A stretch of DNA of 53,394 nucleotides from Methanolobus psychrotolerans (GTDB lineage Archaea; Halobacteriota; Methanosarcinia; Methanosarcinales; Methanosarcinaceae). The position numbers and the translations under genes are program-made. Under the pieces are notes generated by a model. That model made no database searches. It worked only from the letters and a program-made list of their open reading frames with translations, and was not told the DNA's origin. Numbering within the stretch: position 1 is the first letter of the stretch; each line of letters starts with the position of its first letter. This document shows, in pieces, positions 48,420-53,230 of the stretch. The stretch is from positions 1 through 53,394 of the forward strand of contig NZ_MBKP01000036.1 in assembly GCF_002243045.1 (NCBI RefSeq). The letters are read 5' to 3'.

Positions 48420-48885
48420 CAGGAAATAAATGAAATAAAGAAGTTCGATTCAAATGAAATAAGCAGTTGAATTAATACAACTTATATTCCGCAGATGTCC
48501 TCGAATTTTGCCAATTATCTGGATTGCAATTATTTATCAATTAATCGTAACATAATTAGATTGATAAGTAGCACTTATTAACCTCTATTTGATATAAGTA
48601 TGTGCAAATCTACGCTAAAGGAAAATATCCGTTTTTCTCTAGACATTTGCGGAAAGTCGGATACAATGCTTATAATGTATTATCAAAATGTTTATGGCCC
48701 CAAGATCTCTCTAAAGACCATTTACTTTATCTGTTAATCATTCAGACTCTATGTCTGAAAGATGCTATTGTTTGCTTTACTAGGTCATTTTTTTGTATCT
48801 CCCACACCCTACTACACTTTCCTGACGCTTATCTATATAAATCTATAGCGAATACACTAATTTATCAAAAAACAGAGGTATCCGC
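48420..48885. other. Intergenic region before the flavodoxin gene
   Basis: 466 bases with no gene. The first copy of the 183-bp repeat (48481-48663) is here. Near 48830 the AT-rich run atctatataaatctatag is a likely TATA element for the flavodoxin gene. Confidence 0.5.
48481..48663. repeat. 183-bp repeat, intact copy
   Basis: It starts with CTTATATTCCGCAGATGTCC and ends with GCGGAAAGTCGGATA. The ends hold an inverted repeat, TTCCGCAGATGTC on the left against GACATTTGCGGAA on the right (one mismatch). The second copy at 52609-52959 is almost identical but is cut by an insertion. There is no reading frame. It looks like a second small nonautonomous element or another dispersed repeat; no clear target duplication was found. 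Confidence 0.7.
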
Positions 48886-52602: not shown

Positions 52603-52608
52603 ATATAG

Positions 52609-52959
52609 CTTATATTCCGCAGATGTCCTCGAATTTTGCCAATTATCTGGATTGCAATTATTTATCAATTAATCGTAACATAATTAGATTGATAAGTAGC
52701 ATTTATTAACATCTATTTGATATAAGTATGCGTAAATCTACGCTAAAGGAAAATATCCGTTTTTATCTAGACCATGACTTCCGCCTTTTTAGGCGCATAC
52801 ACGTCTCTTGATGCGGAAATATGTGCTTATATTTTACAACATTATTCCGTTTGGCAAGAAGTAAAAATCAAATTCTAGTGGCGTTTTCTATTTACATCTC
52901 CTGCTGATATGCGCTTAAAACTTGGGAACTCAGGCTAGACATCTGCGGAAAGTCGGATA
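52609..52959. repeat. 183-bp repeat, second copy split by an insertion
   Basis: It matches 48481-48663 from CTTATATTCCGC to ccgttttt-TCTAGAC and again from CTAGACATCTGCGG to AGTCGGATA, with a 162-bp element between. Without the insertion and one CTAGAC the copy is about the same length as the intact one, with a few substitutions. Confidence 0.8.
52773..52934. mobile_element. MITE (162 bp) nested in the repeat
   Basis: The insert is flanked by CTAGAC on both sides (52767-52772 and 52935-52940), while the intact repeat has it once (48638-48643), so this is a 6-bp target duplication. The ends are imperfect inverted repeats: CATGACTTCCGCC...TTTTTAGGCGCATA on the left against CCTGAGTTCCC...TTTTAAGCGCATA on the right, 20 of 27 positions equal. 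The IS end at 53165 (CCTGACTTCCGCTTTTTTAA) has the same sequence, so the MITE was probably moved by that IS or a close relative. No reading frame inside. Confidence 0.8.
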
Positions 52960-53014
52960 TAGTCCTAAACAACCAAGTAAAGGAAGCCATCCCATAGATA
53001 AGGAAGTGTGAAAG

Positions 53015-53230
53015 ATGGTAAAGTGTTGCAGTTGTGGAATATACAACGATGAAGAGGACTTCTTTGTCTTGGTCCGTGGTAAATGGTACTGCGTGATATG
53101 TGACGAATCTAACCCACATGAACAGTTCCCATGGGAAAAGCTCAGGACAGAAAAAACATTAGATCCTGACTTCCGCTTTTTTAAGCGCATAATTCCATTT
53201 TCCCCAATATCTCCTTTTGCTTCCTTGTGA
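53015..53230 (+). CDS. Small zinc-ribbon-like protein, 3' end replaced by an IS
   Basis: A 71-codon frame. The first 50 residues look native: C4-x2-C7 and C26-x2-C29 (KCCSCG and WYCVICDE), a zinc-ribbon or rubredoxin-like pattern with acidic and aromatic residues between. From about residue 51 (DPDFRFFKR) the sequence is the inverted end of an IS that begins at 53165, so the original C-terminus is lost. The function is unknown. GGAAG (53002-53006) is the ribosome-binding site. Confidence 0.55.
   Translation: MVKCCSCGIYNDEEDFFVLVRGKWYCVICDESNPHEQFPWEKLRTEKTLDPDFRFFKRIIPFSPISPFASL

Follow-up and report, generated by a model that had tools for sequence, protein, structure and literature searches.

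The IS1634 family of insertion sequences (ISs), formerly the IS1549 group (De Palmenaer et al. 2008), comprises elements of 1500–2000 bp with ends of the type C-----YT, which generate target duplications of 5–6 bp (PMC2266710). Prokaryotic MITEs, for their part, have been reviewed (PMC10969869). Both kinds of elements provide the framework for the locus described here, from the methanogen Methanolobus psychrotolerans. The window, i.e., the whole stretch of DNA that was analysed (53,394 nucleotides), corresponds to C58, one of the 106 contigs that make up the 3.16-Mb genome. It contains a 180-bp host repeat, hereafter A, present as one intact copy (A1) and one split copy (A2), the latter interrupted by a 162-bp insert, hereafter B.

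The resemblance to the IS1634 family is close: all four ends of A and B read C-----YT, both elements are flanked by 6-bp duplications, and autonomous relatives of 1.7–1.9 kb match the transposase model of the family. A and B differ from it in having no transposase gene and in measuring only 180 and 162 bp. Like prokaryotic MITEs, they are short and geneless, carry the terminal inverted repeats of ISs, occur in several copies, and are bordered by target duplications, but they differ from those reviewed in being nested in one place and adjoining at a common target in another. MITEs of about 250 bp with ends CTGACTTTCCGCAGATGTC, found in Methanosarcina-like genomes (e.g., G149), have A's ends and a 6-bp duplication (ATGGAT); nevertheless, with their 252 bp and their different interior, they constitute a sister family rather than copies of A. 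In the literature searched on Methanolobus MITEs and archaeal nested MITEs, no description of the A or B families was found. As a pair, these MITE families are new, their kind being already known; the nested event itself is ordinary.

Structure of the Nested Insertion

Alignment and flank comparison delimit A1 at 48481–48660 (+ strand), with unequal terminal repeats (CTTATATTCCGCAGATGTC and CCGACTTTCCGCAAATGTC), between two copies of the target duplication ATACAA (48475–48480 and 48661–48666). A2, on the same strand, lies between two copies of a different duplication, ATATAG (52603–52608 and 52957–52962). Its first 164 bases (52609–52772) end with CTAGAC, and its last 16 bases (52941–52956) follow the duplicated hexamer. 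B occupies the space between these two parts (52773–52934), with the 3′ end of the IS at the left of its + strand and the 5′ end at the right, and is bounded exactly by the two CTAGAC copies (52767–52772 and 52935–52940). When positions 52773–52940 (B and one CTAGAC) are removed, A2 amounts to 180 bases, which align base by base and without any gap to 48481–48660, with 174 of the 180 identical and 6 differences. CTAGAC is found once in A1, as in all intact, close A copies, including the one closest to A2 (2 differences in 180), located on contig 89, which displays the empty site. As CTAGAC is single in these copies, and as other hexamers surround B elsewhere in the genome, this motif is part of A and was duplicated by B. 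The earlier note on this DNA, made from the window alone, had described a 162-bp MITE nested in the second copy of a repeat, with CTAGAC once in the intact copy and on both sides of the insert in the split one, and had ordered the events as repeat first, then MITE. All of this holds in the alignment that it had recommended, where the ends of the insert coincide exactly with the CTAGAC repeats.

The same note had given the host repeat a length of 183 bp, at 48481–48663 and 52609–52959. The repeat is real and both starts are correct, but the ends lie at 52956 and 48660. The 183-bp length was rejected: the final ATA does not belong to the repeat, but is the start shared by the two different target duplications, ATACAA and ATATAG. 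That the host repeat is a MITE too, bordered by 6-bp target duplications of its own, had been overlooked.

Given that both elements are repetitive and that the contig terminates 432 bases further on, in a third repeat, the assembly could have wrongly joined two repeat copies, leaving B only seemingly inside A. Such an artefact is nonetheless very unlikely, as the junction falls, to the base, on a perfect 6-bp duplication, like those at seven other B sites. Moreover, the unique hexamer ATATAG stands on both outer sides of A2, which is not expected from a chimera of two A copies, and A2 and its B copy each contain private bases.

Genomic Copies and Target Duplications

Searching for more copies of both elements had also been proposed. 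The genome searches, from which all copy numbers derive (copy L024 being left out of the counts), yielded 9 copies of B and about 17 matches to A, so that neither the repeat nor the insert can be put down to chance. All B copies are 162 bp long, and 14 of the A matches are complete and well aligned (180 or 182 bp). Perfect 6-bp target duplications, all different and mostly A+T-rich, surround eight of the nine B copies (CTAGAC, CTTTAT, ATAAAT, TTATAC, TTGTTA, ATTTAA, ATTAAT, and CTGTAG). They are also found around 11 of the 14 complete A copies, while one has a 5-bp duplication and two have none. The chance of a perfect hexamer duplication is about 0.0003 per copy, considering base composition alone; given this rarity, transposition accounts for both A and B. 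Both show the features of MITEs: they are short and multicopy (about 180 bp and about 17 copies for A, 162 bp and 9 copies for B), devoid of a transposase gene, surrounded by target duplications of constant length (6 bp), and terminated by imperfect inverted repeats (CTTATATTCCGCAGATGTC and CCGACTTTCCGCAGATGTC for A, CCTGACTTCCGCCTTTTTAGGCGCATA and CCTGAGTTCCCAAGTTTTAAGCGCATA for B). One A copy with a degenerate end, on contig 52 (15674–15852, L022), is peculiar in that its left flank and end (gtgaaagaaacttt, 14 bases) recur directly on its right side.

Seven of the nine B copies are 98–100% identical, and identity among A copies ranges from 84 to 100%, with two or three subfamilies. This genome-wide divergence agrees with A first and B second, B probably representing the younger wave. 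Of 16 loci homologous to this region in sister species, 15 are free of A and B end motifs, with one match (L146); as the divergence of the intergenic DNA prevents any alignment over the insertion point, this comparison adds little.

Since A and B fold better than shuffled sequences (z of about −3.8 and −3.5), they could be viewed as structured RNAs or regulatory elements rather than mobile DNA. Terminal inverted repeats alone, however, produce such folds, and target duplications and IS-shared ends show mobility, which leaves this interpretation next to no probability. No Rfam family was detected at threshold; the only two matches, both sub-threshold, fell outside A and B, and an RNA or regulatory family was rejected.

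Relationship to IS1634-Family Insertion Sequences

Another aspect that had been overlooked is that A and B both derive from IS1634-family ISs. The ends of B are unequal, with CCTGACTTCCGCC on one side and CCTGAGTTCCCAAG on the other, and this end pair is found in autonomous-type, full-length elements. One of them, in Methanosarcina spelaei (L048), is flanked by the 6-bp duplication ATTAAA, and its frame is broken. The other, in a Euryarchaeota MAG (L049), is 1733 bp long and encodes an open transposase of 523 aa, which matches the NCBIfam model NF033559 (IS1634) with E = 1.8e-88. The ends of a resident IS of the same end type, which B also shares, are present in the genome itself: its 3′ end on C58 (53165–53394), C54, and C104, and its 5′ end on C41. 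In the window, this relative of B's parent lies on the − strand, where the last 70 transposase residues and the terminal repeat CCTGACTTCCGCTTTTTTAAGCGCATA are visible before the contig end cuts it. It starts about 200 bp downstream of the nested elements, at 53165, and had not been noticed before. C58 stops 230 bases inside this IS1634-family IS, and C54 and C104 also end in the same IS. Just beside it, a small cysteine-rich reading frame (MVKCCSCGIYNDEEDFFVLVRGKWYCVICDESNPHEQFPWEKLRTEK...; 53015–53164) leads directly into the terminal repeat of this IS1634 element (53165), and the IS may have truncated it.

Each of these resident IS ends coincides with the end of a contig, the pattern that a collapsed repeat should give, the assembly being broken by the IS. 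As contigs break within it, no parent of B can be read whole: an intact one was not found in the genome assembly, only its two ends on broken contigs. The interior of B aligns, with a short gap, to the region around the L049 transposase start, better than all of 500 shuffles. In the comparison with the resident 5′ end (C41), the score was equalled by 3 of 500 shuffles, the match being weak outside the ends. A 109-bp relative of B occurs in a sister species. From these sequence comparisons, B seems to have arisen from such an IS1634-family IS by internal deletion. A transposase fragment, 90% identical, occurs in a Methanolobus MAG (L051).

The end type of A (with TTCCGCAGATGTC as core) is frequent in the taxonomic family. 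Allowing up to two mismatches, the 19-base A end was detected in 48 of the 186 genomes of the order, and the reversed control in none. In Methanosarcina-like genomes, A-type ends bound elements of about 1.7–1.9 kb encoding transposases of 530–540 aa (DUF4277 + DDE_Tnp_1). For example, TTCCGCAGATNTC ends bound L116, L117, and L121, and the transposases of L116 and L117 match NF033559 (IS1634) with E = 1.7e-114 and E = 2.4e-121, respectively. A has its ends in common with these autonomous IS1634-family elements, the match being limited to the terminal repeats. As A and these ISs share ends and not interior, A is linked to a family and an end type, and not to a single parent copy. In the genome, an intact parent IS of A was not found, only decayed transposase fragments. 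To judge from its terminal sequences, the ends of A are those of another IS1634-type IS, which is intact in related Methanosarcina-like genomes. G149, a Methanosarcina-like genome, harbors many copies of the 252-bp MITE with A-type ends (L120, G149:C1:88249-88500), the 19-base end being present 76 times.

Second A–B Contact and Target Choice

A and B meet a second time on contig 89 (23244–23603; L002 and L004), where they abut and a single hexamer occurs three times, in the order ATAAAT-B-ATAAAT-A-ATAAAT. This triple occurrence indicates that one element, be it A or B, inserted exactly on the target duplication of the other. A2 and the A copy of contig 89, which resemble each other more than any other A copies do, thus both have B at hand, which could evoke a composite A-B-A unit moved or copied by recombination, without any transposition of B into A2. 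Nevertheless, on contig 89, B stands outside A and next to another hexamer, so that the arrangements at the two places differ, and comparing the genomic A copies revealed no other one with B inside; a composite unit is, therefore, hardly credible, and transposition of B into A2 is retained.

With 9 B and 16 A copies, the chance of finding B inside an A is about 1–8%, depending on the space open to insertion, while that of an exact hit on a target duplication is about 0.01–0.1%. The contact on contig 89, although a single case, gives a hint of a target preference common to both elements, or of an attraction to existing ones. Taken together, B inside A, B adjoining A at ATAAAT, and a third IS1634 element 200 bp away could be read as guided insertion. 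IS1634 elements here would then have a preference for inserting at or within each other, the transposase or the end sequences guiding insertions to existing target duplications, a proposal that we consider rather improbable.

Proposed Course of Events and Significance

The locus is very probably explained by two non-autonomous IS1634-family MITEs, one of which inserted into the other, A first and B then, with mobilisation in trans as the inferred part. A would have amplified earlier, and B more recently, one of its copies landing in A2. The transposase of the corresponding IS1634-type IS presumably acted in trans on each MITE, with cuts staggered by 6 bp; repair of the gaps would then have produced the target duplications. 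The arrival of B in A2 may have been fortuitous, or may reflect a preference for A+T-rich intergenic targets common to both elements.

No known rule is overturned by this locus. It documents to the base, in a natural genome, two transpositions that followed each other, and fixes the boundaries of both elements as well as the 6-bp length of the duplication. It also connects two families of small methanogen repeats with their IS1634 parents. Finally, the hexamer common to A and B on contig 89 constitutes a lead on target choice in this little-studied family.
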